In this document: in pieces, positions 19,652 to 55,005 of the stretch
Position numbering within the stretch: the first letter of the stretch is position 1
How the letters are laid out: the number at the start of each line of letters is the position of its first letter
DNA from: Thermobispora bispora DSM 43833
GTDB taxonomy: Bacteria > Actinomycetota > Actinomycetes > Streptosporangiales > Streptosporangiaceae
DNA: 64,000 nt
Assembly: GCF_000092645.1 (NCBI RefSeq)
Contig: NC_014165.1
Location: forward strand, 2,542,001-2,606,000
Reading direction: 5' to 3'
Notes under the pieces: generated by a model
What the model saw: only the letters and a program-made list of their open reading frames with translations
Told to the model about the DNA's origin: nothing
The model's database searches: none
Program-made: the position numbers and the translations under genes

Positions 19652-19813
19652 AGTGCCCTCACCCGCCGTGACCCGTCCACTTGACCACGGAGACCGGGCC
19701 GGCGGGGCGCGACGGGCCTCAGTGTGCCATGACGCCCGCCGGACGGTGGGCGGAATCGCGGCGGGCCCGCGCGGATGGCCGCGGACGTCGGTGCGGCAGG
19801 GTACGGTTCTTCC

Positions 19814-34034: not shown

Positions 34035-34296
34035 CGGGCCAGGGTAACCCGGCGGCGGGCGTCCGCGCCCCGGCGGGCCACCGCCCCCCCGGCGGGCCAC
34101 CGCCCCGGACGGCCCGGTGGGCGGGCCGGCCGGGCGACCGGCGCCGCGCGGGCGCGCCCGGGGCCGGGTGCGCCGACGGGCGCGGCCGGGACGCCGGGCG
34201 CCCCGCGGCCGCCCATGGCCTGACGCGGCGCGCGGCGCCCGCCGGCGGTCTCCCGGCGCCTACCCCGGCCGATCGGCACCCGGCAGACTGGTGGTC

Positions 34297-37545: not shown

Positions 37546-38729
37546 CCGGATCCGCCCCCCTGCTCCCGCTCGCGGAGCCACGCGAGCACCGCCTCGTTGT
37601 CCTGGCCGAGCGCGGGCGGCGCCAGGTGCCGCACGGGCTCCTCCTCGACCCCGCCGGGCGCCTCGAACCGCAGCGGCGAACCGGGGAGCTCGATCTCGCC
37701 GAGCACCGGGTGGTCGACCTTCACCAGGAGCCGCTGGGACCGGACCTGGTCCCAGGCGTAGACCTCGTCGATCGACCGGATGGCCCCGGCGGGCACGCCC
37801 AGCTCGCCGAGCCGGGCGAGCCAGTGGGCGCGGTCGTGCGCGGCGAGCGCCTTCTCGATGTCGGCGATCAGCTCGTCCCGGTGGATGAGCCGGTCCCGGT
37901 TGGTGGCGTACTTGGGCTGGTCGGGGTCGATGCCGAGCAGCTCGGCGACCTTCCGCCACTGCCCGTCGTTGGCGACCGCGAGCTGGATCATGCCGTCGGC
38001 GCACCGGAAGGCGCCGTACGGGGCGATCGAGGAGTGGTGGTTGCCGTTGGCCTTCGGCACGGTGCGGCCCACGGTCCAGGCCGTGCCGTGGTAGGAGTGG
38101 ATGCCCACCACCGAGGCGAGCAGGGAGGTGCGGACGACCTTGCCGCGCCCGGTCCGCTCGCGCTCGAAGAGCGCGGCCAGCACGCCGAAGGCGCCGTGGA
38201 TGCCGGCGAGCAGGTCGGCGATGGAGGCCCCGACCCGGTACGGCTCGTCGGGGGACGGCCCGGTGAGGGACATCAGGCCGGCCTCGCCCTGGGCGATCTG
38301 GTCGTAGCCGGGCCGGCCGCCCTCCGGGCCGTCGTGGCCGAACCCGGTGATCGACAGGATGACCAGGCGCGGGTTGAGCTCGTGCAGCCGGGCGACCGGG
38401 AAGCCGAGCCGGTCGAGCACCCCGGTGCGGAAGTTCTCGATGAGCACGTCGCTCTGCCGCACCAGCCGCTCGAGGAGCTCCTTGCCCTCGGCGGACTTCA
38501 GGTCCACGGTGATCGACCGCTTGTTGCGGTTGGCCGCGAGGAAGTAGGTGGAGATGTCGCCGTCCGGGCCGACGAACGGCGGGCCCCACCCGCGGGACTC
38601 GTCGCCGCCGGACGGGTGCTCCACCTTGATCACGTACGCGCCGAGGTCGCCGAGCATCTGGGCCGCGTGGGGCCCGGCCAGCGCCCTCGACAGGTCGAGA
38701 ACGACGATGTCGTGCAGGGGTCCAGGCAA
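37542..38729 (-). CDS. Class III CoA-transferase, CaiB/BaiF family
   Basis: This family moves CoA between carboxylic acids. The signatures are VLDLSRALAGPHAAQMLGDL, HPSGGDESRGWGPP, TYFLAANRNKRSITVDLK, VLIENFRTGVLDRLG with the Asp-containing region expected for catalysis, and the C-terminal GVPAGAIRSIDEVY. TTG at 38729 is chosen because GGAGG sits six bases upstream; it gives 395 residues. It is coupled to the carboxyltransferase downstream. Formyl-, oxalyl- or malonyl-CoA chemistry would suit the context, but the acid is not known. Confidence 0.8.
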   Translation of the reverse strand: MPGPLHDIVVLDLSRALAGPHAAQMLGDLGAYVIKVEHPSGGDESRGWGPPFVGPDGDISTYFLAANRNKRSITVDLKSAEGKELLERLVRQSDVLIENFRTGVLDRLGFPVARLHELNPRLVILSITGFGHDGPEGGRPGYDQIAQGEAGLMSLTGPSPDEPYRVGASIADLLAGIHGAFGVLAALFERERTGRGKVVRTSLLASVVGIHSYHGTAWTVGRTVPKANGNHHSSIAPYGAFRCADGMIQLAVANDGQWRKVAELLGIDPDQPKYATNRDRLIHRDELIADIEKALAAHDRAHWLARLGELGVPAGAIRSIDEVYAWDQVRSQRLLVKVDHPVLGEIELPGSPLRFEAPGGVEEEPVRHLAPPALGQDNEAVLAWLREREQGGGSG

Positions 38730-39114: not shown

Positions 39115-40950
39115 TCACAGCACGTCGACGTCCGCGTACCGCTTGCCGCCGGAGAGCTTGGGGTAGCCCGGTCCCCGGTCGAAGAAGGCCTCCTGCGGCT
39201 GGGCGCGCATCTCCGCCCGGAGCCGCTCGGTCGCCTCCTCGTCGACCACGATGTGGTCCCGGTCCCCGGAGAGCACCACGCCGTAGTCCCGCCGCGCCCC
39301 CTCGAAGGAGACCTTGCCGTCGCGGACGTCGGCGACCACCTTCTCCACCGGGCGGTTGTACGGGTGGCCCCAGCCGCCGCCACCGGTGGTGCGGATCCGG
39401 ATGATCTCCCCGGCGCGGACCGGGTAGTCGTCGACCAGGCCGTCGAGCTCCACGTCGCCCACCGTGACCCGGAACGGGGCGCCGGCCTTGCCGCCGTTCA
39501 CCCCCCAGCAGGAGAGGATCGACCGGTCGGCGATCGACATGAACGACGCGTCGCGGAGCATGCGGATGTGCTTGTCGTAACCGAGGCCGCCGCGGAACTC
39601 CCCCGGCCCGCCGCTGTCCACGGCGAGCCCGAGCCGCTCCACCCGCAGCGGCCAGCGCGACTCGGCGAACTCCACCGGGATGTTCCGCGAGTCCGGCACG
39701 ACGTGGATGGTGTCCTCGCCGTCCGCGTACCAGCGGCCGCCCGAGCCGCCGCCGAGCACCTCGCGCATCAGGTACGGGCCGTCGTCGGACTCGCCGTACA
39801 CGCCGGTGTACCGGATGGTCTCCTGGTCGGCCGGCATCCGCCCCCCGGTCGCCTTGGCGAGCACCCCGGCGAGCACCCCCAGCAGCCGCAGGATCACGAA
39901 CGTCCGGGCGTTGGTGGGCGCCGGGAAGATCGGCGTGAGCAGGGTGCCCTTCTCCGGGAAGACCATCTTGATCAGCGGGACGACGCCCTCGTTCACGTCG
40001 AGCTCGGCCATCCGCTCGGGCGTGTCGGCGAGATTGCGGAGGATCGGGGCGAGCCACTTCTTCAGGAACACCCCGTCCGCGTAGTCGCCCGCGTGGTTGA
40101 TCGGCCCCTTCGCCTGGGGCGAGGTGCCGGTGAAGTCGATGGTGAGCGGCGGGTCGGCCGAGTGGTCGACGGTGAGCGTGATCCGCTGGGTGTGCAGCTT
40201 CGGCTCGTCCACGCCGTCGTGCTCGGCGTAGTCCTCCCAGACGTAGACCCCCTCGGGGATCTTCGACAGCAGCTCCCGGCGGAAGGTCTCCGTCGTGTTG
40301 TCGATGATCGCGTCGAAGCACGCCTCCACCGCCTCCCGGCCGTACCGGTCGAACAGCTCGGCGAGCCGGCGCGCCCCCATCAGGCAGGCGGAGCACTCGG
40401 CGTCGAGGTCGCCGGCGAGCGCGTCGGGCGTCCGGGAGTTGCGGGTCATGATGGTGAGCGCGGCCCGGTTGGGCACCCCCTGGTCCCACAGCTTGATCGG
40501 GGGCACCATCAGGCCCTCTTCGAAGACGCTGCGCGCCCGCGACGGCATCGAGCCGGGTACGGCGCCGCCGATGTCGTCGTGGTGGCCGAACGCCTGGACG
40601 AAGGCGACGACCTCCCCCTTGTGGAACACCGGCACGGTGACGCACAGGTCCGGCAGGTGGCCGATGCCGCCCTCGGACAGGTACACGTCGTTGTGGAAGT
40701 AGACGTCACCCGGGCGCATGGTCTCGATCGGGAAGTCCCGCACGATCGGCTGGACCAGCGCCGAGTAGGACCGGCCGGTGAGCTTGCGCAGCTTCACGTC
40801 GTGGATGCCGGCCCGGAAGTCGTGCGCGTCGCGGATCATCGGCGAGCGCGCGGTCCGCGCGATCGCGGTCTCGACCTCCTTCTCGACCGAGGCGAGCGTG
40901 CCCTGCACGATCTCCACGAGGACCGGGTCGGCGCCGTTCTTCGCGCTCAT
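39115..40950 (-). CDS. hyuB: Hydantoinase/oxoprolinase-type subunit B
   Basis: This 611-residue protein is the B subunit of an ATP-dependent ring-opening amidase such as N-methylhydantoinase, or of related acetophenone or acetone carboxylases. Landmarks are RSPMIRDAHDFRAGIHD, GDVYFHNDVYLSEGGIGHLP, QAFGHHDDIGGAVPGSM, TIDFTGTSPQAKGPIN and GGPGEFRGGLG, with GGGGWGHPYNRP near the C-terminus. The ATG at 40950 overlaps the hyuA stop (ATGA), so both subunits are made together. Confidence 0.88.
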   Translation of the reverse strand: MSAKNGADPVLVEIVQGTLASVEKEVETAIARTARSPMIRDAHDFRAGIHDVKLRKLTGRSYSALVQPIVRDFPIETMRPGDVYFHNDVYLSEGGIGHLPDLCVTVPVFHKGEVVAFVQAFGHHDDIGGAVPGSMPSRARSVFEEGLMVPPIKLWDQGVPNRAALTIMTRNSRTPDALAGDLDAECSACLMGARRLAELFDRYGREAVEACFDAIIDNTTETFRRELLSKIPEGVYVWEDYAEHDGVDEPKLHTQRITLTVDHSADPPLTIDFTGTSPQAKGPINHAGDYADGVFLKKWLAPILRNLADTPERMAELDVNEGVVPLIKMVFPEKGTLLTPIFPAPTNARTFVILRLLGVLAGVLAKATGGRMPADQETIRYTGVYGESDDGPYLMREVLGGGSGGRWYADGEDTIHVVPDSRNIPVEFAESRWPLRVERLGLAVDSGGPGEFRGGLGYDKHIRMLRDASFMSIADRSILSCWGVNGGKAGAPFRVTVGDVELDGLVDDYPVRAGEIIRIRTTGGGGWGHPYNRPVEKVVADVRDGKVSFEGARRDYGVVLSGDRDHIVVDEEATERLRAEMRAQPQEAFFDRGPGYPKLSGGKRYADVDVL

Positions 40951-42989
40951 CGCTCGCTCACCACCACAAGGTTGCCGTAGTCGTCCATGGTCGCGGTGAA
41001 GCCCGGGTGCACGGGCAGGGTCGATCCGTACTCCTCGATGACCGCCGGGCCGCGCACCACGGCGCCGGCCCCGAGGTCGCCGCGGCGGTAGATCACCGTG
41101 CGGCTCCACTGGTCGAAGTAGACCTGGCGGGTCGCCACCGGGCTCGGCTCCTCGGCCTGCCGCGGCCGCCGCGGGATGGTCGGGCGCTTGATCGGGCCGA
41201 TCCCGGACACCCGGAAGTTGACGAACTCGACCGCGTGGCGCGGGTCGTTCCGGTACGCGTACCCGTAGAGCCGCTCGTGCTCGGTGTGGAACCGGTCGAC
41301 GACCGCGGCGAGCCAGGCGGCGTCGATCGGGCCGTCGGGCGCCGGCACCCGCACCTCGTACGCCTGGCCGTAGTAGCGCAGGTCCGCGCTGCGGGCGTAG
41401 ACGTGCTCGGTGAAGCCTTCGCGGTCGAGCGCGTCGGCCGCCTGGGCCTCCAGCTCCGCGTAGAGCTCCGCCACCTTCTCCGGCGCGGGGTTGCGCGAGA
41501 CGTAGGTGCGGACGTAGTCGTTCCGGACGTCCACGCTGAGCAGGCCGAACGCCGACAGGTTGCCCGGGTCCGGCGGGACGATCACCGCGGGGAGGCCGAG
41601 GATGTCGATCAGGCGGCAGGCGAGCAGCGGGCCGGAGCCGCCGAAGGCCACCATCGGGAACTCGCGGATGTCGAGCCCGCGCTCCACGGTGATCTGGCGG
41701 ATCGCGTTCGCCTGGTTGAACGCGCTGATCTCCAGGATGCCGGTGGCGCACCGCTCCGGGGTGAGGCCGAGCCTGCCCGCGAGCTCCTCCAGGCCCTTCC
41801 GGGCCGCGGCCACGTCGAGGGCGATCTCCCCGCCGAGCAGGTGCGGCGGCACACGGCCGAGGAAGACGTGGGCGTCCGTCACCGTGACCTCGGTGCCGCC
41901 CTTGGCGTAGCAGAGCGGCCCCGGGTCCGCCCCGGCGGAGCGCGGGCCGACCTTGAGCGTGCCCTCGGGCGAGACCCACGCGATCGAGCCGCCGCCCGCC
42001 CCGACGGTCACGATGTCGATCATCGGGATCTTGCAGGGGTAGGGGCCGATGCTCCCCTCGGTGGTGAGGCTAGGCTCACCGTTGATCACCACGGCGACGT
42101 CGGTGGAGGTGCCGCCGCCGTCCAGGGTGATCACGCTCGGGTGGCCGGCGTTCGCCGCGATCAGCGCGGCCCCGAGGGCGCCGGCGGCCGGGCCGGAGAG
42201 CACCGTGGCGATCGGCTGGTGCACCACCTCGGCGGCCGAGAGGATGCCGCCGTTGCTCTTCATGACCGAGAACCCGCGGCCGAGCCGCTCGGTGAGGTTG
42301 CCGATGTACTGCCGGATCACCGGCTTGACCGCGGCGTCCACCAGGGTGGTGACCGACCGCTCGTACTCGCGGTACTCCCGCAGCACGTCGCTGGAGATCG
42401 AGACCACGGCCTCGGGGTGCTCGCGCGCCAGCACCTCGCGCATGCGCCGCTCGTGCTCCGGGTTGGCGTACGAGTGGAGGAAGCAGACGCCGATCGCGGT
42501 GATCCCGCGCTCCTTGAACCACCGCGCCACCCGGACGGCCTCCTCCTCGTCGAACGGCCGGACCTCCCGGCCGAGGTGGTCGAGCCGCCCTCCGACGGTC
42601 TTCACCCGGTGCACCGGGACGATCCGCGGCGGCTTCACCCAGAAGTAGGAGTTGCCGTACCCATCCGGCACGCTCTGCCGGGCGATCTCCAAGATGAACT
42701 CGAAGCCCTCGGTCGTGATGAACCCGAGGTGGGACATGCCCTCGGGACGCTCTTGGAGGAGCAGGTTGGTGGCGACCGTCGTGCCGTGGACGATCGCCGC
42801 CACCGCGCCGATGTCGCAGGAGCCGCCATAGGCCTCGAGGACCTTGTGGACGGCTGCCATGAATCCCTCGGCTGGATCGGCAGGAGTAGAGGGGGTCTTG
42901 GTGGTGATGATCTGGCCGGTCTCGTCATCCACCAGAACGACGTCGGTGAATGTGCCCCCGGTGTCGACCCCGATGCGGACGCTAGGCAT
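40947..42989 (-). CDS. hyuA: Hydantoinase/oxoprolinase-type subunit A
   Basis: This 680-residue protein is the ATP-binding A subunit. The N-terminus holds GVDTGGTFTDVVLVD, the actin/hexokinase-like phosphate loop of the family; further landmarks are HGTTVATNLLLQ, FLHSYANPEHE, MKSNGGILSAAEV and TLDGGGTSTDVAV. Together A and B use ATP to open a lactam or imide ring. Its exact substrate (hydantoin, 5-oxoproline, caprolactam or acetone-type ketone) is not fixed by sequence. The upstream gap carries its promoter; a Mo hydroxylase is encoded beyond. Confidence 0.88.
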   Translation of the reverse strand: MPSVRIGVDTGGTFTDVVLVDDETGQIITTKTPSTPADPAEGFMAAVHKVLEAYGGSCDIGAVAAIVHGTTVATNLLLQERPEGMSHLGFITTEGFEFILEIARQSVPDGYGNSYFWVKPPRIVPVHRVKTVGGRLDHLGREVRPFDEEEAVRVARWFKERGITAIGVCFLHSYANPEHERRMREVLAREHPEAVVSISSDVLREYREYERSVTTLVDAAVKPVIRQYIGNLTERLGRGFSVMKSNGGILSAAEVVHQPIATVLSGPAAGALGAALIAANAGHPSVITLDGGGTSTDVAVVINGEPSLTTEGSIGPYPCKIPMIDIVTVGAGGGSIAWVSPEGTLKVGPRSAGADPGPLCYAKGGTEVTVTDAHVFLGRVPPHLLGGEIALDVAAARKGLEELAGRLGLTPERCATGILEISAFNQANAIRQITVERGLDIREFPMVAFGGSGPLLACRLIDILGLPAVIVPPDPGNLSAFGLLSVDVRNDYVRTYVSRNPAPEKVAELYAELEAQAADALDREGFTEHVYARSADLRYYGQAYEVRVPAPDGPIDAAWLAAVVDRFHTEHERLYGYAYRNDPRHAVEFVNFRVSGIGPIKRPTIPRRPRQAEEPSPVATRQVYFDQWSRTVIYRRGDLGAGAVVRGPAVIEEYGSTLPVHPGFTATMDDYGNLVVVSER

Positions 42990-43302: not shown

Positions 43303-43992
43303 TCAGCGGCGCCGCGAGCGGCCGAGGAGCCAGCCGACGACGGCGCTGCCGAGCGCCACGGCCGCCCCGAGGCCGAACGCGGTGACCAGTGACCAGGACG
43401 GAGCCCCGGCCGGGCGGGCCGGCCCACCGGCCTCCCGGGTGAACACCTTGGCGGTCTCCCGCGGTGCGGCCGCGGGCTCGGCGGCGGCCGCCTCCGGAGC
43501 GGCCTGCTCCGGAACCGCCTGCTCGGGGGCCTGCTGCCCGGCCGCGGCGGCCGCGCCCGACAGCAGGTGCCGCTCGACGGCGGTGAAGAACTCGTTCGCC
43601 ATCCGCTTCGCCACCGAGCTGAGCATCCGCTGGCCGACCCCGCCGATCATGCCGCCGACGACGGCATCGGCGTCGTAGTCGACCCGGGTGCCGCCCTCGA
43701 CCTCGCTGAGCCGGACCTGCACGGTCGCCTCGACCGTGCCCGGGGCACCCTGCCCCTGCGCCTTGAGCACGAACCGCTCCGGCTCCTGGGGGTCGACGAG
43801 CGCCACCTGGCCCTGGTACACCCCCTTGATCGAGGCGACGCCGGCGGTCAGCGTCATCGAATAGACATCCGTGCCGACCTCCTGCAGGCGCTCGCACCCG
43901 GGGATGGTCCGTACCAGAACCTCGGGGTCGTGGAAAGCCTCCCATAGGCGTTTGCGCTCCACCCCGAGCGTTGCACTGCCAACGACCTTCAT
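43303..43992 (-). CDS. CoxG-like SRPBCC protein with C-terminal anchor
   Basis: This 229-residue protein has an SRPBCC/CoxG fold at residues 1-145 (LWEAFHDPEVLVRTIPGCER, then YQGQVALVDPQEPERF and RVDYDADAVVGG), a low-complexity Ala/Pro/Glu linker, and a C-terminal membrane helix (SLVTAFGLGAAVALGSAVVG) followed by RRR. CoxG proteins help attach or mature carbon monoxide dehydrogenase-type Mo hydroxylases at the membrane. The ATG at 43992 is chosen because GGAGG lies five bases upstream. It lies 233 bases after the Mo subunit, with a terminator between. Confidence 0.82.
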   Translation of the reverse strand: MKVVGSATLGVERKRLWEAFHDPEVLVRTIPGCERLQEVGTDVYSMTLTAGVASIKGVYQGQVALVDPQEPERFVLKAQGQGAPGTVEATVQVRLSEVEGGTRVDYDADAVVGGMIGGVGQRMLSSVAKRMANEFFTAVERHLLSGAAAAAGQQAPEQAVPEQAAPEAAAAEPAAAPRETAKVFTREAGGPARPAGAPSWSLVTAFGLGAAVALGSAVVGWLLGRSRRR

Positions 43993-44225: not shown

Positions 44226-46628
44226 TCAGCCGACCGAGGCGTGCTCCCGCGCCTTGCGCAGCTCGTACAGCTCGGACGGGGAGATCGGCATCCGGTCGAT
44301 GGGGAAGCCCTCCGCGTCCTCGATGGCCGAGGCGATGACCGCCGAGACCGGGATCACGCCCGCCTCGCCCGCGCCCTTGATGCCGAGCGGGTTGAGCGGC
44401 GAGGGCGTCTCCAGGTGGTCGGTCTCGATCCGCGGCACCTCGGTGGCGTACGGGATGAGGAAGTCCATGAACGAGGCGTTGAGCAGCTGCCCGTGCTCGT
44501 CGTAGACGAGCCGCTCGTAGAGCGCGCCGCCGACGCCCTGGGCGACTCCCCCGTGGACCTGCCCCTCCACGATCATCGGGTTGATGAGCCGGCCGCAGTC
44601 GTGCACCACCGCGTACTTGAGGATCTTGATCTCGGCCGTCTCGGGGTCGGTCTCCACGATCGCCGCGTGCATGCCGCTGGCGAACGTCGACCGGACGGGC
44701 GAGTAGTAGTCCTTGCCCTCCAGCCCCGGCTCCTCGCCCTCCTCCACCGGGGGCCGGTCCATGGACGTCGCCCCGGCGAACTGGGTGGCGCGCTTGGCCT
44801 CCTCGTCGAACGCGTACCGCAGCGGGTTGGCGAGCACGGCGACGGTCGCCAGCGGGATCGACACCGACGGCGCGCCGACCACGTGCACCACCCCGTCGGT
44901 GATGGTGAGGTCGCGCGGGTCGGCCTCCAGCGCCTCGGCCGCGATCTTCAGCGCCTTCTCCCGCACCTTCCGGCAGGCGAGCGCGATCGCGTTCCCGCTC
45001 ATCACGGCCGCCCGGGAGGCGAAGGTGCCCACCGCGTACCCGAACCGGCGGGTGTCCCCGGTGACCACGGTCACCTTCTCGATCGGCACGCCGAGCTCGG
45101 TCGCGGCGATCTGCGCGAAGACCGTCTCGTGCCCCTGCCCCTGCGAGGTGAGGCCGGTCGAGACGTGGACCCGCCCGTCGGTGGTGATCTGGACGTGCCC
45201 GCCCTCGTACGGGCCGACGCCGGTGCCCTCGACGTAGCAGCCGATGCCGATGCCGAGCCGCCGCCCCTCCGCGGCCGCCTTGGCCTTCAGCTCCGGGAAC
45301 GAGTCCCAGCCGATCAGCTTCTTGAGCATCCGCAGGGCCTCGGGGTAGTTGCCGCTGTCGTAGATGAGCGGCCGCCCGTCCTGGAAGATCAGGCCCTGGT
45401 CGTACGGGAACTCATCGGGCTGGATGAAGTTCACGGCCCGCACCTCGGTCCGGTCCTTGCCGAGGTACGCCGCGATCTTGTCCATGGTGCGCTCCATGCA
45501 GAACACGCCCTGCGGGCGGCCGGCGCCCCGGTACGGCGTGACCTGCACGGTGTTGGTGTAGAGCGAGGAGAACTCGACCCGGTAGGCGCCGATCTTGTAC
45601 GGCCCGAGCAGCTGGGTCGAGGTGATGATCGGCACGATGATCCCGTACGGCGTGTACGCGCCGTGGTCGTGGAGGATGTTCACGTCCAGGCCGAGGATGC
45701 GGCCGTCGTCGTCGAACCCCACCCGGACGTACTGCACCTGGGCCCGCTCGTGGGCCGAGGAGATGAAGTGCTCCCGGCGGTCCTCGGTCCACTTGATCTC
45801 CCGGTTGAGCTGCCGGGCGGCCCACGGGATGAGGATCTCCTCCGGCCACGGGTGCATGATCTTGACGCCGAAGCCGCCGCCCACGTCCGGGGCGATCACC
45901 TCGACCTTCGGCAGCGGGAGCCCGAGCTTGGCCGCGATCGCCATCCGGACGCTGGTCGAGGTCTGCGTGGACGAGTAGACCCGCAGCGACTCGTCGTCCG
46001 GGTCCCACCGGGCGTACACGCCCCTGCCCTCCATCGGCATGGAGGCGCTGCGCTCGATGTCGAGCCGGAACGCGAGGGTGTGCGGCGCGTCCTCGATCAT
46101 CTCCCGCGCCGAGCGGCCGTCGGCGGAGCGCACCTCCTGCACCAGGTGCGCGCCCACGTTGCCGGGCACGTCCGGGTGGACCAGGTGCTCCCCGCGGGCC
46201 GCCTCCTCCACGCCGATGACCGGCTTGAGCGGCTCGTACTCGACCTTGATCAGGTCGCAGGCGTCCTCGGCGACGTACCGGTCGCGGGCGACGACCATGA
46301 CCACCGGCTCGCCCACGTGCCGGACCACGTCCTTGGCGAGCGCGTACGCGGTCCTGCCGTGGGTGAGCGCGGGGTGCGGGATCAGCAGCGGCAGCGGCTC
46401 GGCGATCGCACCGGGCAGGTCCTCCCACGTGTAGATGGCGACCAGCCCGTCCACGTCGAGCGCGGCCGACACGTCGATGTCGACGATCCGGGCGTGGGCG
46501 TGGGGCGACCGGACGAACGCGGCCGCGAGCGCGTCCCGGCCCAGATCGTCGAGGTACCGCCCGTTGCCGGTGACCAAGCGGGGGTCCTCACGCCGCTGCA
46601 CCGGCTCCCCGAACAGCTGCGTCGTCAC
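44226..46628 (-). CDS. Molybdenum hydroxylase large subunit, xanthine/CO dehydrogenase type
   Basis: This 800-residue molybdopterin-binding subunit has the family landmarks GNGRYLDDLGRDALAAAFV, VGEPVVMVVARDRYVAEDA, APDVGGGFGVKI and PYRGAGRPQGVFCMERTMD (form II style, not the AYXCSFR of true CO dehydrogenase). GLTSQGQGHETVFAQIAATE and the Glu of GIKGAGEAGVIP at the active site complete it. The enzyme hydroxylates heterocycles or aldehydes using water. The GTG start overlaps the small-subunit stop (GTGA). Context suggests a purine, pyrimidine or related ring as substrate. Confidence 0.88.
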   Translation of the reverse strand: MTTQLFGEPVQRREDPRLVTGNGRYLDDLGRDALAAAFVRSPHAHARIVDIDVSAALDVDGLVAIYTWEDLPGAIAEPLPLLIPHPALTHGRTAYALAKDVVRHVGEPVVMVVARDRYVAEDACDLIKVEYEPLKPVIGVEEAARGEHLVHPDVPGNVGAHLVQEVRSADGRSAREMIEDAPHTLAFRLDIERSASMPMEGRGVYARWDPDDESLRVYSSTQTSTSVRMAIAAKLGLPLPKVEVIAPDVGGGFGVKIMHPWPEEILIPWAARQLNREIKWTEDRREHFISSAHERAQVQYVRVGFDDDGRILGLDVNILHDHGAYTPYGIIVPIITSTQLLGPYKIGAYRVEFSSLYTNTVQVTPYRGAGRPQGVFCMERTMDKIAAYLGKDRTEVRAVNFIQPDEFPYDQGLIFQDGRPLIYDSGNYPEALRMLKKLIGWDSFPELKAKAAAEGRRLGIGIGCYVEGTGVGPYEGGHVQITTDGRVHVSTGLTSQGQGHETVFAQIAATELGVPIEKVTVVTGDTRRFGYAVGTFASRAAVMSGNAIALACRKVREKALKIAAEALEADPRDLTITDGVVHVVGAPSVSIPLATVAVLANPLRYAFDEEAKRATQFAGATSMDRPPVEEGEEPGLEGKDYYSPVRSTFASGMHAAIVETDPETAEIKILKYAVVHDCGRLINPMIVEGQVHGGVAQGVGGALYERLVYDEHGQLLNASFMDFLIPYATEVPRIETDHLETPSPLNPLGIKGAGEAGVIPVSAVIASAIEDAEGFPIDRMPISPSELYELRKAREHASVG

Positions 46629-47137
46629 TGGGCCTCCTCCGCCTGGATCTCGGCGGCCCGGCGGACCGCCTTGATGATGTTCTGGTAACCGGTGCACCGG
46701 CACAGGTTGCCGGCGATGCCCTCCACGATCTCGTCGTCGGTGGGGGACGGGTTCTCCCGGAGGAACGCCGTGATGGTGGTGAGGAAGCCGGGGGTGCAGA
46801 ACCCGCACTGCAGCGCGTGGCACTCGATGAAGGCGCGCTGCACCGGCGAGAGCTCGCCGTCCTTGGCGAGGCCCTCGACCGTGGTGATCTCGTGCCCGTC
46901 CGCGGTGACCGCCAGGGTCAGGCACGAGCGCACCGGCTCCCCGTCGAGGAGCACCGTGCACGCGCCGCACACCCCGTGCTCACAGCCGACGTGCGTGCCG
47001 GTGAGGCCGAGGTCGTGCCGCAGGCAGTCGGAGAGCAGCCGGCGCACCGGTACCGTCGCCTCCCGCACCACCCCGTTCACCGTGAGGGTGATGCTCCGGG
47101 TGCACTCCGTGTCGATCTCCTCTGTCCGCTCGCTCAT
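46625..47137 (-). CDS. Molybdenum hydroxylase [2Fe-2S] small subunit
   Basis: This 170-residue electron-transfer subunit has a plant-type [2Fe-2S] domain (CEHGVCGACTVLLDGEPVRS) and a second, helical domain (LQCGFCTPGFL and CRCTGYQNII). Both clusters link the Mo site to FAD. Length and motifs are complete. It overlaps its neighbours by four bases on each side, so three subunits come from one coupled mRNA. Confidence 0.93.
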   Translation of the reverse strand: MSERTEEIDTECTRSITLTVNGVVREATVPVRRLLSDCLRHDLGLTGTHVGCEHGVCGACTVLLDGEPVRSCLTLAVTADGHEITTVEGLAKDGELSPVQRAFIECHALQCGFCTPGFLTTITAFLRENPSPTDDEIVEGIAGNLCRCTGYQNIIKAVRRAAEIQAEEAQ

Positions 47138-48009
47138 TCCTCACTCTCCCCCGCGGCGTCGGCGGCGCTCCGCAGTGCCCGTACCGCGAGCACCCCGGTC
47201 AGATGCCGCCGGTATTCGGCGGTCGCGTGGATGTCCGCCTCCGGGTCGATCCGCTCGCGCACCGCGTCCGCGACCGCGTCCCAGTCCACGGAGGACGCCG
47301 GGCGGGCTCCGCAGACCGCGGTGACGTCGATGACCACGGGGACCGGGCCGACGCTCACGCACGCGACGCGGGCCGACCTGATCCGCAGGTCCTCGTCGAG
47401 GGTGACGGCCGCGGCCACGCCCGCCATCGCGTAGTCGCCGTGGCGCCGGGAGACCTCGCAGAACGCGGTGCCCGAGCGCTCCGGCAGCGCCGGGAAGAAC
47501 GCCGACACGGCGAGCTCGCCCGGCTGCAGCGCCGTCTCCAGGGGGCCGACGAAGAACTCCGCGGCGGGGACGTCCCGCTCCCCGCGGCTGCTGGCGAGCC
47601 GTACGGAGCCGCCGAGCAGGGCGAGGACGGCGGGCATCTCCGCGGAGGGGTCGGCGTGGACGATGCTGCCGACCACGGTCCCCCGGTTGCGGATCACCGG
47701 GTGGGCGACGTGGTGGAGCGCCTGGGCGAGGAGCGGCTGGACCGCCCTCGCCTCGGCCGAGCGCTCCACCGCCCGGTGCCGGGCGAGCGCGCCCACCCGC
47801 ACCCCGCCGGGCTCGGCGGTGATCGTGTTCAGCTCGGTGATCCGGTTGATGTCGACCAGATGGGCAGGGGCGGCCAGCCGCATGTTGAGCAGCGGGATCA
47901 GGCTCTGGCCGCCCGCCAGGACCTTGCCGTCCGGGCCGAGCCGGGCGAGGAGGTCGACCGCCTCGCCCAGCTCGGCCGGATCGTGGTAGCGAAAGGCTGG
48001 TGGTTTCAC
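47134..48009 (-). CDS. Molybdenum hydroxylase FAD-binding medium subunit
   Basis: This 291-residue subunit has the FAD-binding motifs of the CO dehydrogenase flavoprotein family: AGGQSLIPLLNMRLAAPAHL (near residue 36) and RNRGTVVGSIVHADPSAEMP. It passes electrons from the iron-sulfur clusters to an acceptor. The gene order, medium-small-large, matches cox-like operons. It starts 14 bases after the permease stop, so import and oxidation are probably co-expressed. Confidence 0.9.
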   Translation of the reverse strand: MKPPAFRYHDPAELGEAVDLLARLGPDGKVLAGGQSLIPLLNMRLAAPAHLVDINRITELNTITAEPGGVRVGALARHRAVERSAEARAVQPLLAQALHHVAHPVIRNRGTVVGSIVHADPSAEMPAVLALLGGSVRLASSRGERDVPAAEFFVGPLETALQPGELAVSAFFPALPERSGTAFCEVSRRHGDYAMAGVAAAVTLDEDLRIRSARVACVSVGPVPVVIDVTAVCGARPASSVDWDAVADAVRERIDPEADIHATAEYRRHLTGVLAVRALRSAADAAGESEE

Positions 48010-48023
48010 CGGTTTCCTGTGAT

Positions 48024-49391
48024 TCAGACTGATGCGTCTCGTTCGGCTGGGGCCTTCTCACTCACCGCCGCCTGCGTGCCCGGCCGGTTCGCGATCCAGC
48101 GGAGCACGTGATACCCGCCGAGGACCACGATCGTGCCGAGCGCGATGCCGGCGAGCGAGAAGTCGTCGGTGATCTGGTGGGTGACCGGGCCGATGGCGAG
48201 GATGATCCCGGCGCCGACCGGGACCATGTTCACCGGGTCGGAGAAGTCCACCCGGTTCTCGATCCAGATCTTCGCGCCGAGCAGGCCGATCATGCCGTAC
48301 AGGATCACGGTCACGCCGCCGAGGACGCCGTCCGGCGTGGCCGACACCAGGGCGCCGAACTTCGGGCAGAGGCCGAAGAGGATGGCGATGATCGCGGCGA
48401 TGTAGTAGGCCGCGGTCGAGTACACCCGGGTGGCGGCCATGACGCCGATGTTCTCGGCATAGGTGGTGGTCGGAGAGCCACCGACCGAGGTGGCCACGAC
48501 GGTGGCGACACCGTCGGCCATGACCGCCCGGCCCATGTACGGGTCGACGTCCGTGCCGGTCATCTCGCCGACCGCCTTGACGTGCCCCACGTTCTCCGCG
48601 ATCAGGGCGATCACGGCGGGGAGCACCAGGACGATCGCCGAGAACTCGAAGGCGGGACCGTGGAACTGCGGCAGGCCGATCCAGTCGGCCGCGGCCACGT
48701 TCTCCAGGTTGACCCGGTAGTGCGGGGCGACCTCGCCGGTGGCCGTGGGCGAGGTGATCTGGCCGACGGTCACGTCGAGGACCCAGGAGAGCACGTACCC
48801 GAAGATCAGGCCGAGCAGGATCCCGATCCGGCCGAGGAAGCCCTTGAACAGGACGATGAAGAGCCCCGTCACCACCATCGTGATCAGCGCGACCCACTGG
48901 TCCTTGGGCCAGTAGACCTGGGCGACCACGTAGGCGAGGCCGAAGCCGATGAGCATGACCACGGCACCGGTCACCACCGGCGGGAAGATCCGGTTGATGA
49001 TCCGGACGCCGAGGAAGTGGATGGCCACGCCCACGGCGGCGAGGACCAGACCGGCGACGAGGATCGCGCCGGTCACCGTGGCGTCATCGCCCTGCGCCGC
49101 CCGGATGGCGGCCACGCCGCCGACGAACGACGCGGACGAACCGAGATAGCTCGGGATCTTCCCCTGGACGATGAGCAGGAACAAGATCGTGGCGACGCCG
49201 GACATCATGACCGCGATGTTCGGGTCGAGCCCCATGACGACGGGGAACACGAACGTGGCGCCGAACATCGCGACCACGTGCTGAAAACCGAACCCGATCA
49301 TCCGCGGCCAGCTCAGCCGCTCGTCGGGCTTGACCACCTCACCGGGCGCCAGCGTCTTGCCGTCGCCGTGCACCTTCCATCTGAGGGCCAT
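48024..49391 (-). CDS. Nucleobase permease, NCS2 (xanthine/uracil) family
   Basis: This 455-residue protein has about 13 hydrophobic segments. NCS2 landmarks are GFQHVVAMFGATFVFP, the ALIAENVGHVKAVGEMTG loop and GGSPTTTYAENIGVMAATRV. It should import a purine or pyrimidine base with a proton. The ATG at 49391 has AAGGAG six bases upstream. The gene heads a unit with the Mo hydroxylase and lies just after pucR, pointing to nucleobase catabolism. The exact base is unknown. Confidence 0.88.
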   Translation of the reverse strand: MALRWKVHGDGKTLAPGEVVKPDERLSWPRMIGFGFQHVVAMFGATFVFPVVMGLDPNIAVMMSGVATILFLLIVQGKIPSYLGSSASFVGGVAAIRAAQGDDATVTGAILVAGLVLAAVGVAIHFLGVRIINRIFPPVVTGAVVMLIGFGLAYVVAQVYWPKDQWVALITMVVTGLFIVLFKGFLGRIGILLGLIFGYVLSWVLDVTVGQITSPTATGEVAPHYRVNLENVAAADWIGLPQFHGPAFEFSAIVLVLPAVIALIAENVGHVKAVGEMTGTDVDPYMGRAVMADGVATVVATSVGGSPTTTYAENIGVMAATRVYSTAAYYIAAIIAILFGLCPKFGALVSATPDGVLGGVTVILYGMIGLLGAKIWIENRVDFSDPVNMVPVGAGIILAIGPVTHQITDDFSLAGIALGTIVVLGGYHVLRWIANRPGTQAAVSEKAPAERDASV

Positions 49392-49547: not shown

Positions 49548-51161
49548 TCAGATGCCCCGCATGCGCAACACGTGCAGGGCGAGGGTGAGATTGAGCCTTA
49601 AGTGCGGGTCCTGGGTGAAGCAGCCGAGCATGCGCTCGAGCTTGCTGATCCGGTACCGCAGCGTGTTGTAGTGGAAGTGCAGCCGCCGCGCGGTCTCGGC
49701 CACGTTGAGGTTGGTCTCCAGCAGCACCTGGAGGGTCCGCCGCAGGTCGGCGTTGTCCGGGTCGTCGTCCCCGGCGAGCGGGCCGAGCGTCTCCTTGACG
49801 AACGCGTGCAGCTCGCCGGTGTCCTTCACCAACGAGAGCAGCCGGTAGACGCCGAGCTCGTCGAAGTGCGCGATCGCGCCGGCCCCGTGGAGCTGGCGGC
49901 CCACCCGGGCGGCCTTCAGCGCCTGGCCGTACGCCCCGGGGAGCGCGCCGGCGTCCTGGGCCACCCGGCTGATGCCGGTGGAGAACGTGCCGTCGGGTAC
50001 GGCGGAGCGGGCGTCGCGGGCGAGCCGTACCGGGTCCACGGAGGAGCCGACCACGGCGACGACCTCGTGGGAGAACCCGGCGACCGCGCCGCACGGGTCG
50101 TGCTTGCGCACCGCGGCCTGCCAGGCGGAGACCATCCGGTCCTGGATCGGCCGCTCCACCGCGTCCGGGTCGATCTCCGCCACGAGCACGCACATCGGGC
50201 GCTCCAGGTCCCAGCCGAACGCCCGGGCGCGGTCGGTGACCCGGGCGCCGCCCCGGCCGGCGAGCACGTCCCGCAGGAAGTCGGCGCGGTACTTGCTCTC
50301 GACCGCGGTGATGGCCTCCTGCTTGGTGATGACCAGCGCGGCCACGGTCGCGGCCCGCTCCAGGATCTGGATCTCGCCCGCGCCGAGCGGCTCGTGCGGG
50401 CTGTACGCGGCGATCCGGCCGTAGTGGTGGCCGCCCGCCACCACGGGCACGGCCGTGTAGTGGTGGTCGGCCTCGAACACCGGGGTGATCGACGTGGCGG
50501 TCACGTCGGCCGCGGCCGCGTGGATCTCGCGTAACCGCGCCACCTGGGCGGGGTCGCCGGCGGTGGCGAGGATCCGGCCCGAGCGGTCGACGGCCGCGAC
50601 CGCCACCTGCAGCAGGCCCGCGACCTCGGCGGTCACCTCGCGCAGCCCGCCGCCGGCGAGCACGATCTGGACCAGCGCCCGGTGGGCCTCCTCGGTCCGG
50701 GCGAGCATGGCCGCCTGGCGGTTGAGGATGTCGGTGAGGACCTGGTTGAGGATGTCGTCGAAGCCGACGTCGTTGGGGAGCAAGATCAGGGGGAAGGCGA
50801 GCCGGTCGGCCTGCTCGACCATCACCTCGGGCAGCTCGTCCAGGTAACGGCCGAGCTTGATCGCCAGCGCGGACAGCCCGCGCTCGTCCAGGTCGGCCAC
50901 GAGCCGGTCGAGCGACTGGGGCGTGTTGCGCAGCGGATACCCGGTGGTGAGCAGCAGCTCGTTGGGCTTCACCCAGGCGAGGATGTCCGGGACCTCCATG
51001 ACGTTGAGCCGCTGGACGATGCGGCCCAGCCCGTCCTTTCCGGCGATGAGCTGTGCGTCGGCCAGGGTGGAGACCTCGAGCACTTCGCCGACCGAGATGC
51101 CGTGCAGGATCTTTCCGGTACTCGCCAATCGCAGCGCCGGGGGCGCCGGCTCGTTCGTCAT
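49548..51161 (-). CDS. PucR-family transcriptional regulator
   Basis: This 537-residue protein has an N-terminal PucR domain (ISVGEVLEVSTLADAQLIAG, then DILAWVKPNELLLTTGY), a middle GAF/GGDEF-like region, and a C-terminal helix-turn-helix (NVAETARRLHFHYNTLRYRI). PucR is the purine-catabolism regulator of Bacillus. It stands divergent from allH-allF-allG and just upstream of the permease gene, so it probably controls both. The effector is unknown; allantoin-type compounds are likely by analogy. Confidence 0.9.
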   Translation of the reverse strand: MTNEPAPPALRLASTGKILHGISVGEVLEVSTLADAQLIAGKDGLGRIVQRLNVMEVPDILAWVKPNELLLTTGYPLRNTPQSLDRLVADLDERGLSALAIKLGRYLDELPEVMVEQADRLAFPLILLPNDVGFDDILNQVLTDILNRQAAMLARTEEAHRALVQIVLAGGGLREVTAEVAGLLQVAVAAVDRSGRILATAGDPAQVARLREIHAAAADVTATSITPVFEADHHYTAVPVVAGGHHYGRIAAYSPHEPLGAGEIQILERAATVAALVITKQEAITAVESKYRADFLRDVLAGRGGARVTDRARAFGWDLERPMCVLVAEIDPDAVERPIQDRMVSAWQAAVRKHDPCGAVAGFSHEVVAVVGSSVDPVRLARDARSAVPDGTFSTGISRVAQDAGALPGAYGQALKAARVGRQLHGAGAIAHFDELGVYRLLSLVKDTGELHAFVKETLGPLAGDDDPDNADLRRTLQVLLETNLNVAETARRLHFHYNTLRYRISKLERMLGCFTQDPHLRLNLTLALHVLRMRGI

Positions 51162-51315: not shown

Positions 51316-51327
51316 CAGGAGGTCCTG
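51316..51327. promoter_or_regulatory. Palindrome overlapping the allH ribosome binding site
   Basis: CAGGAGGTCCTG reads the same on both strands and includes the AGGAGG ribosome binding site of allH, ending at its GTG. Part of its symmetry is caused by the Shine-Dalgarno sequence itself, so regulatory meaning is uncertain. Confidence 0.25.
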
Positions 51328-52253
51328 TGAGCGTTGGCACGCGCCTGGAGCGGCGAACGACGGGGAAGTGGGGCCGTACCCGCCGGCAGACCGTCTTCGC
51401 CGGCGGCGCGGCCAGCGTCGCCCTGCGCCCGGCGGTGCAGGCGCCACGGCGCCCGGCCCGCGTGCTCGCCGTGTTCCCCGCCGCCGCCTACCTGGAGGTG
51501 CGGAGCGGGGCCGAGCCGCGGGTGATCGCACTCGTGACCCCGGACGCCGTCCGGCCGCCCAACGCGATCGTGGTCGGCTTCGCCGGGCAGGCCGGGCCGG
51601 CCGACCTCGCGGCCGTGCTCTCCTGCGATGACGAGGCCTGGGTCGGAGAGGGGATGGCCGGCGCCGGGCGGCTCTGCGTCACGGTCCACCGCTGGTGGGA
51701 CCCGGCGCCCCCGCTCGGCGCGGCCGATCCGGAGTCGCTGCGGCGAGGCCTCGCCGCGCTCGACGAGATCATCGCCACCGCGCCGCGGCGGCCGGGGCTC
51801 GACCTCGGCGGCGACGCCGCCCGGCTCGCGGCGGGCTGCCGCACCGGCTCGCTCGCCGACGCGGTCACCGCGGCGGAACGGCTCATCGGGCTCGGCCCGG
51901 GCCTGACCCCGAGCGGTGACGACATGCTGTGCGGCCTGCTCGTCGCGATGCGCCGGCTCGGTCACGCGGCCGGGGCGCCGCGGGCGGTCTGGTTCGCCGA
52001 CTGGCTCGCCGCGACGGTGACGTACCACGCCCGCACCAGCACGACGCCGATCTCCGCCACCCTCCTCCACTGCGCCGCCCGCGGGGAGGCGTCCCGGGAG
52101 GTGCTCGCAGTGCTCCACGGCCTCACCGGCCGCCGGCCGCTCGCCCCCGCGGTCCACCGCCTGCTGGAGGTCGGCCACACCTCGGGCGCCGACCTGCTGT
52201 GGGGCATCCACGCCGGCCTGTCCGCCGTCCTTGTCCATTGGGAGCGTCCTTGA
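51327..52253 (+). CDS. allH: Oxamate carbamoyltransferase subunit AllH-like (DUF2877)
   Basis: This 308-residue DUF2877 protein has the family signature IGLGPGLTPSGDDMLCGLL (residue about 190) and TTTPISATLLHCAARGE. In E. coli YlbF, now AllH, works with FdrA/AllF and YlbE/AllG to split oxalurate into oxamate and carbamoyl phosphate. The GTG start has CAGGAGG just upstream. It is the first gene of a tightly coupled trio (TTGA and ATGA junctions), divergent from pucR. Confidence 0.8.
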   Translation: MSVGTRLERRTTGKWGRTRRQTVFAGGAASVALRPAVQAPRRPARVLAVFPAAAYLEVRSGAEPRVIALVTPDAVRPPNAIVVGFAGQAGPADLAAVLSCDDEAWVGEGMAGAGRLCVTVHRWWDPAPPLGAADPESLRRGLAALDEIIATAPRRPGLDLGGDAARLAAGCRTGSLADAVTAAERLIGLGPGLTPSGDDMLCGLLVAMRRLGHAAGAPRAVWFADWLAATVTYHARTSTTPISATLLHCAARGEASREVLAVLHGLTGRRPLAPAVHRLLEVGHTSGADLLWGIHAGLSAVLVHWERP

Positions 52254-53623
52254 ACGATCTGGTCGAAGTACGCGCAGGCGTCTACCACGACTCGGTGACC
52301 CTCATGCGGGTGAGCCAGGCGCTCTCCGCGCGGCCCGGGGTGGAGGTCGCCGTCGTCGCGATGGCCACCGAGCTCAACGTCGCACTCGCCCGCGATCTCG
52401 GCTTCACCGTGCCGCCCGCCACCCCGGGCGACCTGCTGATCGCGATCCGCGCCGCCTCGGAGGACGAGCTCTCCGCGGCGGTCGCCGAACTGGACCGGAG
52501 GCTCGCCGAGCGGACGGCCGGCGGCGGCGCCGGCCGGCAGGACGAGGCCCACCCGCGCACGACCCGGTCGGCCGCGCGGTCGTGGGACGCGACCATGGTC
52601 CTGGTGAGCGTTCCGGGCGAGCACGCGTTCGCCGAGGCGCTCGACGCCATCGAGGCCGGGCTCTCCGTCATGATCTTCAGCGACAACGTCCCGGTGGAGC
52701 AGGAGATCCTGCTCAAGGACCGGGCGCGGGAGCGCGGCGTGCTGGTCATGGGCCCGGACTGCGGCACCGCGGTGGTCGCCGGGGCCGGCCTCGGCTTCGC
52801 CAACGTCCTCCGGCCCGGGCCGGTCGGGGTGGTGGCCGCCTCCGGCACCGGCGCCCAGCAGGTGACGAGCCTGCTCGACCACGCGGGCGTGGGCGTCAGC
52901 CACGTGCTCGGCGTGGGCGGCCGGGACCTGTCGGCGGAGGTCGGCGGGCGCTCGGCGGTGCAGGCGCTGCGCGCGCTCGACGAGGACCCGGCGACCGAGC
53001 TGATCGTGCTGATCTCCAAGCCGCCCGCGCCCGAGGCGGCGGCCGCGGTCCGCGAGCTCGGGCTCACCAAGCCCGTGGTCTACGCGCTGCTCGGGCCCGG
53101 CCAGGAGGACCTCACCACGGCGACGGAGAAGGTGCTCGGCGCCCTCGGCCGGCCGGTGCCGGAGTGGCCGTCGTGGCCGGCCCCGGGTGAGCCCGCGCGG
53201 CCGGCGCCGCAGAGCCTGCGCGGCCTGTACTCGGGCGGCACGCTCTGCACCGAGGCCGAGCTGATCGTGGGCACGGGCGAGTTCACCGACTTCGGCGACG
53301 ACGCGTACACGCGGGGACGCGCCCACCCGATGATCGACCCCACGCTCCGCCTCGAGGCGCTCGCCGAGGTCGACTCCGGCGTGGTGCTCCTCGACGTGGT
53401 GCTCGGCCACGGGGCCGACCCCGACCCGGCCGCGAAGCTGGCCCCGGCCATCGAGGCGGCCCGGGCTCGGGGGGTGAACGTGGTGGTCGCGCTCATCGGC
53501 ACCGAGGGCGACCCGCAGGGCCTGCGCACTCAGGCCGCCCGGTTGAACGAAGCGGGAGCGGCCGTGTTCACCTCGAACGCGGCCGCCGCCCGGCACGCGA
53601 GGTGGATGATCGGAGCCGCATGA
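52250..53623 (+). CDS. allF: FdrA-like oxamate carbamoyltransferase subunit AllF
   Basis: This 457-residue protein of the FdrA family has an acyl-CoA-synthetase-like fold: a regulatory N-terminus (VEVRAGVYHDSVTLMRVSQ), then a CoA-binding-like domain (VMGPDCGTAVVAGAGLGFA, VVAASGTGAQQVTSLL) and a ligase-type domain (LYSGGTLCTEAELIV). It starts with TTG in a TTGA overlap with allH. Genes of this family stand beside carbamate kinase in E. coli; here the kinase is 21 kb away. Function in this organism is inferred. Confidence 0.82.
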   Translation: MNDLVEVRAGVYHDSVTLMRVSQALSARPGVEVAVVAMATELNVALARDLGFTVPPATPGDLLIAIRAASEDELSAAVAELDRRLAERTAGGGAGRQDEAHPRTTRSAARSWDATMVLVSVPGEHAFAEALDAIEAGLSVMIFSDNVPVEQEILLKDRARERGVLVMGPDCGTAVVAGAGLGFANVLRPGPVGVVAASGTGAQQVTSLLDHAGVGVSHVLGVGGRDLSAEVGGRSAVQALRALDEDPATELIVLISKPPAPEAAAAVRELGLTKPVVYALLGPGQEDLTTATEKVLGALGRPVPEWPSWPAPGEPARPAPQSLRGLYSGGTLCTEAELIVGTGEFTDFGDDAYTRGRAHPMIDPTLRLEALAEVDSGVVLLDVVLGHGADPDPAAKLAPAIEAARARGVNVVVALIGTEGDPQGLRTQAARLNEAGAAVFTSNAAAARHARWMIGAA

Positions 53624-55005
53624 CCCTCTCGATGCTGAACCAAGAGCCGCGTGTGATCACGGTGGGGGCCGCCCTCCTCGACGAGGCCCTCGACCGGCAG
53701 GCCGTGCCCCGGCGGCCGGTGGACTGGCGGCCGCCGCTCCCCGGCACCTCGGAGGCGCTCGCCAAGGTGCTCGCCGACCCGCGCCGCGAGGAGGCCAACC
53801 GGACCGCGGTGGGGCGGATGCTCTCCGCGCGCCCCCAGCTCGTCGGCGTCCGGCCGGCCCGGGAGGTGCTCGGCCTGGAGCCGGGGACGTTCTTCCACGC
53901 CGGCCCGCCGATCACCTGGGAGCGGGCCTCGGGGCCGATGCGCGGCGCCCTGATCGGGGCGATGCTGTTCGAAGGGCTCGCCGCCACCCCGGAGGAGGCG
54001 GAGGCGGCCCTGGCCTCGGGCAAGGGGATCACCCTCGACTCCTGCCACCACCACCGCGCCGTGGGCCCGATGGCGGGGGTGGTGAGCCCGTCGATGTGGA
54101 TGTTCGAGGTCGTCGACGCCGAGCACGGCGGCACCGCGTACTGCTCGCTCAACGAGGGCCTGGGCAAGGTGCTCCGCTACGGCGCCTACGGGCCGGAGGT
54201 GATCGAGCGCCTGCGGTGGATGGGCGAGGTGCTCGGCCCGGTGCTCCAGGCGGCGCTGCAGAAGACGGGCCCGATCGACCTCAAGACGCTGATCGCCCAG
54301 GCGCTGCAGATGGGCGACGAGCTCCACAACCGCAACCGCGCCGCCACCTCGCTGCTGCTGCGCGAGCTCGCCCCGGCGATCGTGGACGCGGCCCCGGAGC
54401 GCGCCGCCGAGGTGCTGCGCTTCATCAATGGGAATGATCATTTCTTCCTGAACCCCGGAATGGCCGCGGCGAAAGTCAGCGCGGACGCGGCGCGCAACGT
54501 TCCCGGATCGAGCCTTGTCGTGGCGATGGCCAGAAACGGAACCGATTTCGGAATTCAGGTTTCCGGGCTCGGCGACCGCTGGTTCACCGGGCCGGCCGGG
54601 ATTCCGGACGGGCTCTACCTCGGCGCGTACGGCCCGGACGACGCCAATCCGGACATCGGCGACTCGGCGATCACGGAAACCGTGGGCCTCGGCGGGTTCG
54701 CGATGGCCGCCGCCCCGGCGATCGTGCGGTTCGTCGGCGGGGAGGTGAAGGACGCGTTCGCCGCCACCACCTCGATGTACGAGATCACCCTGGCCGAGCA
54801 CCCGGCCTACCAGATCCCCGGCTTCGGATTCCGCGGCACTCCGGTGGGGATCGACGTCGCGCTCGTCGCGCGGACCGGGCTGCTCCCCGTGATCAACACG
54901 GGAATCGCCGGACGGGTCGCGGGAACGGGGCAGGTGGGCGCCGGATTGGTGCGGCCGCCGGTTGAACCGTTCGTCGCCGCCCTTCATGCCCTGACTGAGG
55001 TGTGA
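53620..55005 (+). CDS. allG: DUF1116 oxamate carbamoyltransferase subunit AllG-like
   Basis: This 461-residue DUF1116 protein has the family pattern VLGLEPGTFFHAGPPITWER, SCHHHRAVGPMAGVVSPSMW and a C-terminal NTGIAGRVAGTGQVGAGLVR. In E. coli its homologue YlbE/AllG is the third subunit of the carbamoyltransferase. The ATG at 53620 overlaps the allF stop, which favours it over an upstream ATG at 53602. It ends the operon; the following gene is an unrelated kinase. Confidence 0.82.
   Translation: MTLSMLNQEPRVITVGAALLDEALDRQAVPRRPVDWRPPLPGTSEALAKVLADPRREEANRTAVGRMLSARPQLVGVRPAREVLGLEPGTFFHAGPPITWERASGPMRGALIGAMLFEGLAATPEEAEAALASGKGITLDSCHHHRAVGPMAGVVSPSMWMFEVVDAEHGGTAYCSLNEGLGKVLRYGAYGPEVIERLRWMGEVLGPVLQAALQKTGPIDLKTLIAQALQMGDELHNRNRAATSLLLRELAPAIVDAAPERAAEVLRFINGNDHFFLNPGMAAAKVSADAARNVPGSSLVVAMARNGTDFGIQVSGLGDRWFTGPAGIPDGLYLGAYGPDDANPDIGDSAITETVGLGGFAMAAAPAIVRFVGGEVKDAFAATTSMYEITLAEHPAYQIPGFGFRGTPVGIDVALVARTGLLPVINTGIAGRVAGTGQVGAGLVRPPVEPFVAALHALTEV

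Follow-up and report, generated by a model that had tools for sequence, protein, structure and literature searches.

An AllFGH-type carbamoyltransferase gene trio in a conserved barbiturase neighbourhood of Thermobispora bispora, with ureidomalonate as its probable substrate

The AllFGH complex of Escherichia coli cleaves oxalurate with phosphate into oxamate and carbamoyl phosphate, as described in the available text of PMC11326118. Barbiturase yields 3-oxo-3-ureidopropionate (ureidomalonate), and in the oxidative pyrimidine pathway of Rhodococcus this compound is hydrolysed to malonate and urea, both according to the accessible part of a citing paper. Three genes of the AllFGH type, in the order allH-allF-allG, were found in the window, which is the whole stretch of 64,000 nucleotides analysed here (NC_014165.1, positions 2,542,001 to 2,606,000) from Thermobispora bispora DSM 43833, whose genome is a single contig of 4,189,976 bp. 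Judged from sequence, the trio probably supplies the carbamoyl-transfer step of a gene cluster for oxidative pyrimidine breakdown and would phosphorolyse ureidomalonate. One conserved, divergent neighbourhood held the trio, a ring hydrolase with the barbiturase residue signature beside the only full carbamate kinase, a molybdenum hydroxylase, a permease and a PucR regulator. Of the oxidative pyrimidine pathway, the window contained a predicted barbiturase and, in the molybdenum hydroxylase, a candidate uracil dehydrogenase.

The AllH-type subunit (51327-52253, plus strand, 308 amino acids), assigned from its sequence, started with GTG behind AGGAGG and matched PF11392 with 106.5 bits. The AllF/FdrA-type subunit (52250-53623, plus strand, 457 amino acids) started with TTG and carried PF00549 and PF02629; it scored 230 bits with FdrA of PDB 3dmy and 375 bits with NCBIfam FdrA, under the cut-off of 433. 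The AllG-type subunit (53620-55005, plus strand, 461 amino acids) started with ATG, matched PF06545 with 336.6 bits and PDB 3clq with 376 bits, and was also placed in trees; neither AllH nor AllG gave a match against NCBIfam. All three reading frames were open. The allH/allF junction was a 4-base TTGA, in which the TTG start of AllF at 52250 sat over the AllH stop, and the allF/allG junction was a 4-base ATGA at 53620. The TTG start fits because the alignment with E. coli AllF began at residues 7/6; a GTG start at 52295, preferred by the gene caller, would cut into this alignment. Junctions were measured in the window and in 18 of the 21 loci of the AllG clade, the other three running into contig ends. 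Of the loci where the junction could be measured, H and F overlapped in 16 of 18 and F and G in 16 of 19; start codons were taken as close to the stop as possible, which biases the count towards overlap. From the family matches and the junctions conserved in relatives, a three-subunit carbamoyltransferase of the AllFGH type is a well supported prediction. The initial annotation had described three genes coupled by TTGA and ATGA overlaps and forming a fixed oxamate carbamoyltransferase; its coordinates and junctions were borne out and the three-subunit reading is supported, but oxalurate as the substrate is not.

The subunits were homologous to those of E. coli, with 48% identity over 409 residues for AllG, 38% over 478 for AllF and 35% over 127 for AllH, set against the system of the available text of PMC11326118. 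Both systems had a carbamate kinase (AllK in E. coli), and for both the expected chemistry is the passing of a carbamoyl group between phosphate and an acylurea. The initial annotation had noted that the kinase gene is adjacent in E. coli; the gene order of the all operon there is F-G-H-K, unlike H-F-G here. The neighbours differed too, being AllD, AllC and AllE in E. coli but barbiturase and a molybdenum hydroxylase in the window, and the AllG proteins fell in separate clades.

The ring-opening amidohydrolase gene (28558-29664, minus strand) matched PF09663 with 525 bits, and its best solved relative was PDB 5hwe ('Barbiturase', 615 bits), the next being a cyanuric acid hydrolase with 338 bits. 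According to the available text of PMC3758960, the active site of Bar, unlike that of cyanuric acid hydrolase, has Asn194, His324, Lys328, Val348 and Ser349, and the fifth position in its group is either Ser or Ala. In the window protein these residues were N194, H324, K328, V348 and A349, the complete published signature of the group VI barbiturases, to which the Rhodococcus enzyme also belongs. From this signature and its closeness to 5hwe, the gene product is a predicted barbiturase. The signature was scored in the window, in the rows of 80 barbiturase loci, in 12 cluster members of a phylum sample (396 genomes) and in three plasmid hydrolases. Of 82 rows, made up of the window and those from the 80 loci, 81 carried it and a single fragment went unscored. 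All 12 phylum-sample members began with NHKV, and their fifth residue was A in five, G in six and S in one. Identity as a cyanuric acid hydrolase, whose NCBIfam equivalog was also over its cut-off, was rejected on the residue signature. A residue rule in the available part of PMC4051656, by which glutamine marks the barbiturase subgroup, did not fit, since the window protein has asparagine there, as in Asn194 of PMC3758960.

AllG and the ring hydrolase occurred together. The phylum sample contained 49 genomes with AllG, 27 with PF09663 and 22 with both. The window AllG belonged to a clade of 52 rows (support 99/96) made up of all 22 both-gene phylum genomes and 30 other rows, which were Streptosporangiales-type genomes reached through barbiturase. 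PF09663 was present in 22/22 phylum-sample clade genomes versus 0/27 other AllG genomes, in a tree with warnings for long branches (Ec_YahG among them) and for atypical composition of the Ec_AllG, L062 and L063 sequences. Five phylum genomes had PF09663 and no AllG, and their hydrolases were divergent, 38-45% identical to that of the window. In a sample of the class (394 genomes), 88 had AllG and 82 PF09663; 75 had both, 7 only PF09663, 13 only AllG and 299 neither, so that AllG was found in 75 of 82 genomes with PF09663 versus 13 of 312 without (Fisher p 3e-58, kinship ignored and any AllG match counted irrespective of clade). Five of the seven hydrolase-only genomes scored 439 bits or less; the exceptions, G614 and G457, scored like barbiturases. 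Within the window's own family, 19/19 AllG genomes fell among the 20 with PF09663. Starting from barbiturase, AllG was found in 49 of 50 genomes searched. These were drawn from the 80 loci, 37 having a kinase beside barbiturase and 13 lacking one there; the exception, G409, was a metagenome assembly.

If the trio were a true oxamate carbamoyltransferase, it would, like the E. coli complex, split purine-derived oxalurate into oxamate and carbamoyl phosphate. The family names, the homology of each subunit to its E. coli counterpart, the PucR regulator next door, and the uricase and allantoinase in the genome all point that way. The genome also contained allantoicase, the three genes lying about 446 kb from AllG, and purine breakdown here is predicted to run via allantoicase. 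Against the oxalurate alternative, no AllD-family protein (PF02615) was found in the T. bispora genome, while four control genomes, E. coli included, gave matches. Among 70 genomes that belonged to the clade or had barbiturase, a search for PF02615, a family that also covers malate and lactate dehydrogenases, gave a match in 25, a point in favour of oxalurate, and none in 45; both AllD-linked controls matched. By contig number, the match was on the AllG contig in 4 of the 25 (G051, G118, G410 and G436), the nearest 356 kb off. Moreover, E. coli AllG and two actinobacterial proteins linked to AllD formed a group with 100/100 support outside the window clade, these rows carrying the composition warning. 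The oxalurate reading of the initial annotation was rejected because the AllD family is absent, the AllG clade is separate and the context differs, with an allantoicase route of its own and co-occurrence with barbiturase; we regard it as quite unlikely. The oxalurate phosphorolysis assay that had been suggested would probably use the wrong substrate, and in such actinobacteria the name 'oxamate carbamoyltransferase' probably assigns these proteins the wrong substrate too. Fifteen AllF and 31 AllG residues separated AllD-linked from barbiturase-linked proteins; with just three AllD-linked rows, these are leads only.

The carbamate kinase (29665-30606, minus strand) scored 310 bits with NF009007 (cut-off 266) and 348 bits with TIGR00746, under the cut-off of 358. 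It was the sole full carbamate kinase match of the genome, two other matches being partial with at most 33.4 bits. It lay 20.7 kb from AllH, with the barbiturase directly downstream and abutting, in agreement with the earlier statement of a kinase about 21 kb away beside a ring hydrolase. No kinase adjoined the trio in the window, so the description as a trio without adjacent kinase is literally right; but the kinase ends the same conserved neighbourhood, and its distance looks derived. The kinase adjoined allH in 14 of 21 fetched phylum-sample loci of the AllG clade, mostly from other classes, with an overlap or a gap of at most 4 bp in 13 of the 14. As for the remaining seven, three were cut by contig ends, two (from the window's class) had the kinase beside barbiturase further off, and two had no visible kinase. 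In 64 of the 80 barbiturase loci the kinase was just upstream of barbiturase. Since the kinase adjoins allH in most relatives of other classes, the best account of the separation in the window is that a cluster which included the kinase was rearranged. A co-loss of kinase and AllG did not hold, as AllG was kept in 13/13 genomes without a kinase beside barbiturase, 7 of which had a full kinase elsewhere.

In the proposed pathway, uracil would be oxidised to barbiturate by the molybdenum hydroxylase, whose three genes, all on the minus strand, encoded a large subunit (44226-46628, gene-caller start; PF20256, PF02738 and PF01315), the candidate uracil dehydrogenase, a 2Fe-2S subunit (46625-47137; PF01799 and PF00111) and a flavin adenine dinucleotide subunit (47134-48009; PF00941 and PF03450). 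Barbiturase would then open barbiturate to ureidomalonate (HOOC-CH2-CO-NH-CO-NH2), and AllHFG would pass the carbamoyl group at the end of ureidomalonate to phosphate, so that malonamate and carbamoyl phosphate are formed; this would be the chemistry of oxalurate to oxamate on a substrate one CH2 longer. Carbamate kinase could turn carbamoyl phosphate into adenosine triphosphate (ATP), ammonia and carbon dioxide. Malonate could be released from malonamate by an amidase, for which a carbon-nitrogen hydrolase (34291-35088, plus strand; PF00795, 189 bits) is a candidate. A family III (CaiB) coenzyme A (CoA)-transferase (37542-38657, minus strand; PF02515), a candidate for malonate activation, and a carboxyltransferase with AccD-like and AccA-like halves (36034-37545, minus strand; PF01039 and PF03255), a candidate for the malonyl-CoA step, might channel malonate into acetyl-CoA metabolism. 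The two genes overlapped by 4 bp, and the carboxyltransferase was weakly similar to malonate decarboxylase subunits. The reported end step in Rhodococcus, hydrolysis to malonate and urea in the accessible text, differs from the phosphorolysis with ATP recovery proposed here.

Several observations weigh against ureidomalonate phosphorolysis. Gly instead of Ser or Ala stood at the last signature place in 6 of the 12 ring hydrolases of other classes. No kinase was seen in the clade loci L052 and L057, and 6 of the 13 genomes without a kinase beside barbiturase (G396, G397, G398, G399, G403 and G405) had barbiturase and kept AllG with no full carbamate kinase match; in these six, carbamoyl phosphate might feed biosynthesis, or the drafts might be incomplete. 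PucR is a purine-type regulator family, and in one related locus (L045) the permease scored best as a xanthine permease. The genome had two urease alpha matches; because ureases are present and the hydrolytic route is known in Rhodococcus, phosphorolysis would be dispensable for nitrogen, and an argument that urease-negative bacteria need this route is inapplicable here.

Alternatively, the genes might merely be carried together, with an amidase hydrolysing ureidomalonate to yield malonate and urea and AllHFG having no step in the process. The hydrolytic ureidomalonase activity reported for Rhodococcus in the citing paper's available text, the amidases in related clusters, the ureases and the AllG genes kept without a full kinase are in its favour. 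However, the association spans many GTDB families in compact as well as split arrangements, and the set is accompanied by carbamate kinase, for which a route to urea has no use. We consider mere co-transport of the genes very unlikely.

The cluster also contained HyuA (hydantoinase/oxoprolinase A, 40947-42989, minus strand; PF01968) and HyuB (hydantoinase B, 39115-40950, minus strand, gene-caller start; PF02538), to which the proposed pathway assigns no step. Beside the clade, with weak support (86/64), stood five AllG rows whose genomes lacked PF09663 and whose genes adjoined NCS2 or a molybdenum hydroxylase with HyuAB, a further point against the proposed pathway. The trio might instead act on a carbamoyl compound made by HyuAB, an ATP-dependent hydantoinase type, and not by barbiturase. 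HyuAB was conserved in many of the clusters, and three loci (L042, L053 and L056) in genomes without PF09663 had AllF-AllG directly behind HyuAB and a molybdenum hydroxylase; HyuAB may be the ring opener there. These three rows, however, fell outside the barbiturase-linked clade, every phylum-sample clade genome had the ring hydrolase, and the kinase pairs with that hydrolase. A HyuAB-made substrate is unlikely on this evidence, and phosphorolysis of the barbiturase product is preferred.

The rest of the neighbourhood included the PucR-family regulator (49548-51161, minus strand; PF07905, 122.9 bits), divergent from allH, and an NCS2 nucleobase permease (48024-49391, minus strand), with RutG as its top score (369 bits, under the cut-off); its family scores came from a longer start and its coordinates from the shorter gene-caller start. 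A CoxG-type protein (43303-43962, minus strand; PF06240) was also present, and further genes on both strands filled the stretch from trio to kinase. The large molybdenum subunit carried the NCBIfam name CODH_aero_grp5 (aerobic carbon monoxide dehydrogenase) with 1537 bits; the context points to a nucleobase hydroxylase, and the name may be misleading.

The gene order recurred in 6/6 other genomes mapped (Microbispora corallina, two Actinomadura, Thermocatellispora and two more of the class), not every gene being present in each. AllG and the ring hydrolase shared one contig, 25-80 kb apart, in 19 of 20 named genomes, which had been chosen for contig numbers or coordinates suggesting linkage; the one remaining genome had coordinates that disagreed with the AllG contig. 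Of the 75 class-sample genomes carrying AllG and PF09663, 48 had the two on one contig, 40 within 60 kb and the other 8 at 65 kb to 1.7 Mb. The gene set was mostly compact in other classes of the phylum, and amidases were present in related clusters; in L045, a cytosine-deaminase-like gene and an AtzE-like amidase adjoined the trio, in keeping with the proposed pathway.

In the open-access literature searched, so far as its text was available, no statement linking an AllFGH-type complex or carbamate kinase to barbiturase or ureidomalonate was found, nor any gene assignment for ureidomalonate removal or for uracil oxidation to barbiturate. The cluster supplies candidate genes for both steps and an energy-conserving alternative to urea formation. 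More tentatively, with chances somewhat short of even, AllFGH-type complexes could form an acylurea phosphorolase family, each recruited to its own supplier of a HOOC-X-CO-NH-CO-NH2 compound: AllD for oxalurate, barbiturase for ureidomalonate and plasmid cyanuric acid hydrolase for 1-carboxybiuret. If this is true, breakdown of pyrimidine and triazine rings would yield ATP via carbamate kinase, whereas the textbook routes are hydrolytic and lack such a step.

Nitrifier allFGHK genes are described in the available text of PMC12625717 beside biuret and triuret genes and without upstream purine genes, an acylurea context like that of the window. The authors interpreted them as oxalurate degradation, and 'barbitur' is absent from the text of PMC12625717; an alternative reading is suggested for these genes. 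The E. coli genes yahEFG-yahI-yahJ (L032, 3926-10508 for yahE-yahJ) had the same H-F-G order as the window, followed by a carbamate kinase, as in the window's relatives, and an amidohydrolase. Window AllG aligned with YahG over the full length, N-terminus included, at 45.6% identity, but YahG stood outside the window's AllG clade, its own tree position being unsure. Unlike the window, the 12-kb yah stretch had no ring-opening amidohydrolase or molybdenum hydroxylase annotated. The yah set may act on an acylurea other than oxalurate.

Three conjugative plasmids, NZ_KP125893.1 (K. pneumoniae, L241), NZ_CP084773.1 (K. quasipneumoniae, L239) and NZ_CP062120.1 (Aminobacter, L240), paired FdrA-DUF1116 with a cyanuric-acid-type hydrolase and, like the window, had a ring hydrolase, AllF/G and a carbamate kinase together, a parallel that counts in favour of the proposed pathway. 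Their ring hydrolases read RTRGG, the cyanuric acid signature, unlike the window, and their AllG proteins belonged to other lineages; allophanate hydrolase was annotated nearby on the two Klebsiella plasmids. Carboxybiuret phosphorolysis by plasmid-type complexes is possible, in which 1-carboxybiuret would give allophanate and carbamoyl phosphate. Among plasmid records matching AllG, 96 of 193 were from Escherichia. On a plasmid of the anaerobe Peptoclostridium acidaminophilum (L242, 9923-18685), DUF2877-FdrA-DUF1116-carbamate kinase stood together with an isochorismatase-family hydrolase and two xanthine permeases; PucR lay a short way past this stretch (18916-20526). The ColV plasmid pAPEC-O2-ColV (L243, 7282-11307) had a DUF1116 protein, a carbamate kinase and a cytosine permease. 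Partial AllG matches on plasmids of Paenarthrobacter ureafaciens (NZ_CP014575.1, 9565-10056; 60% identity over 36% of AllG) and Pseudomonas sp. EGD-AKN5 (NZ_KP289281.1, 72500-72703; 66% identity over 15% of AllG) are possibly remnants, and an AllG match was also observed on a Rhodococcus opacus plasmid.

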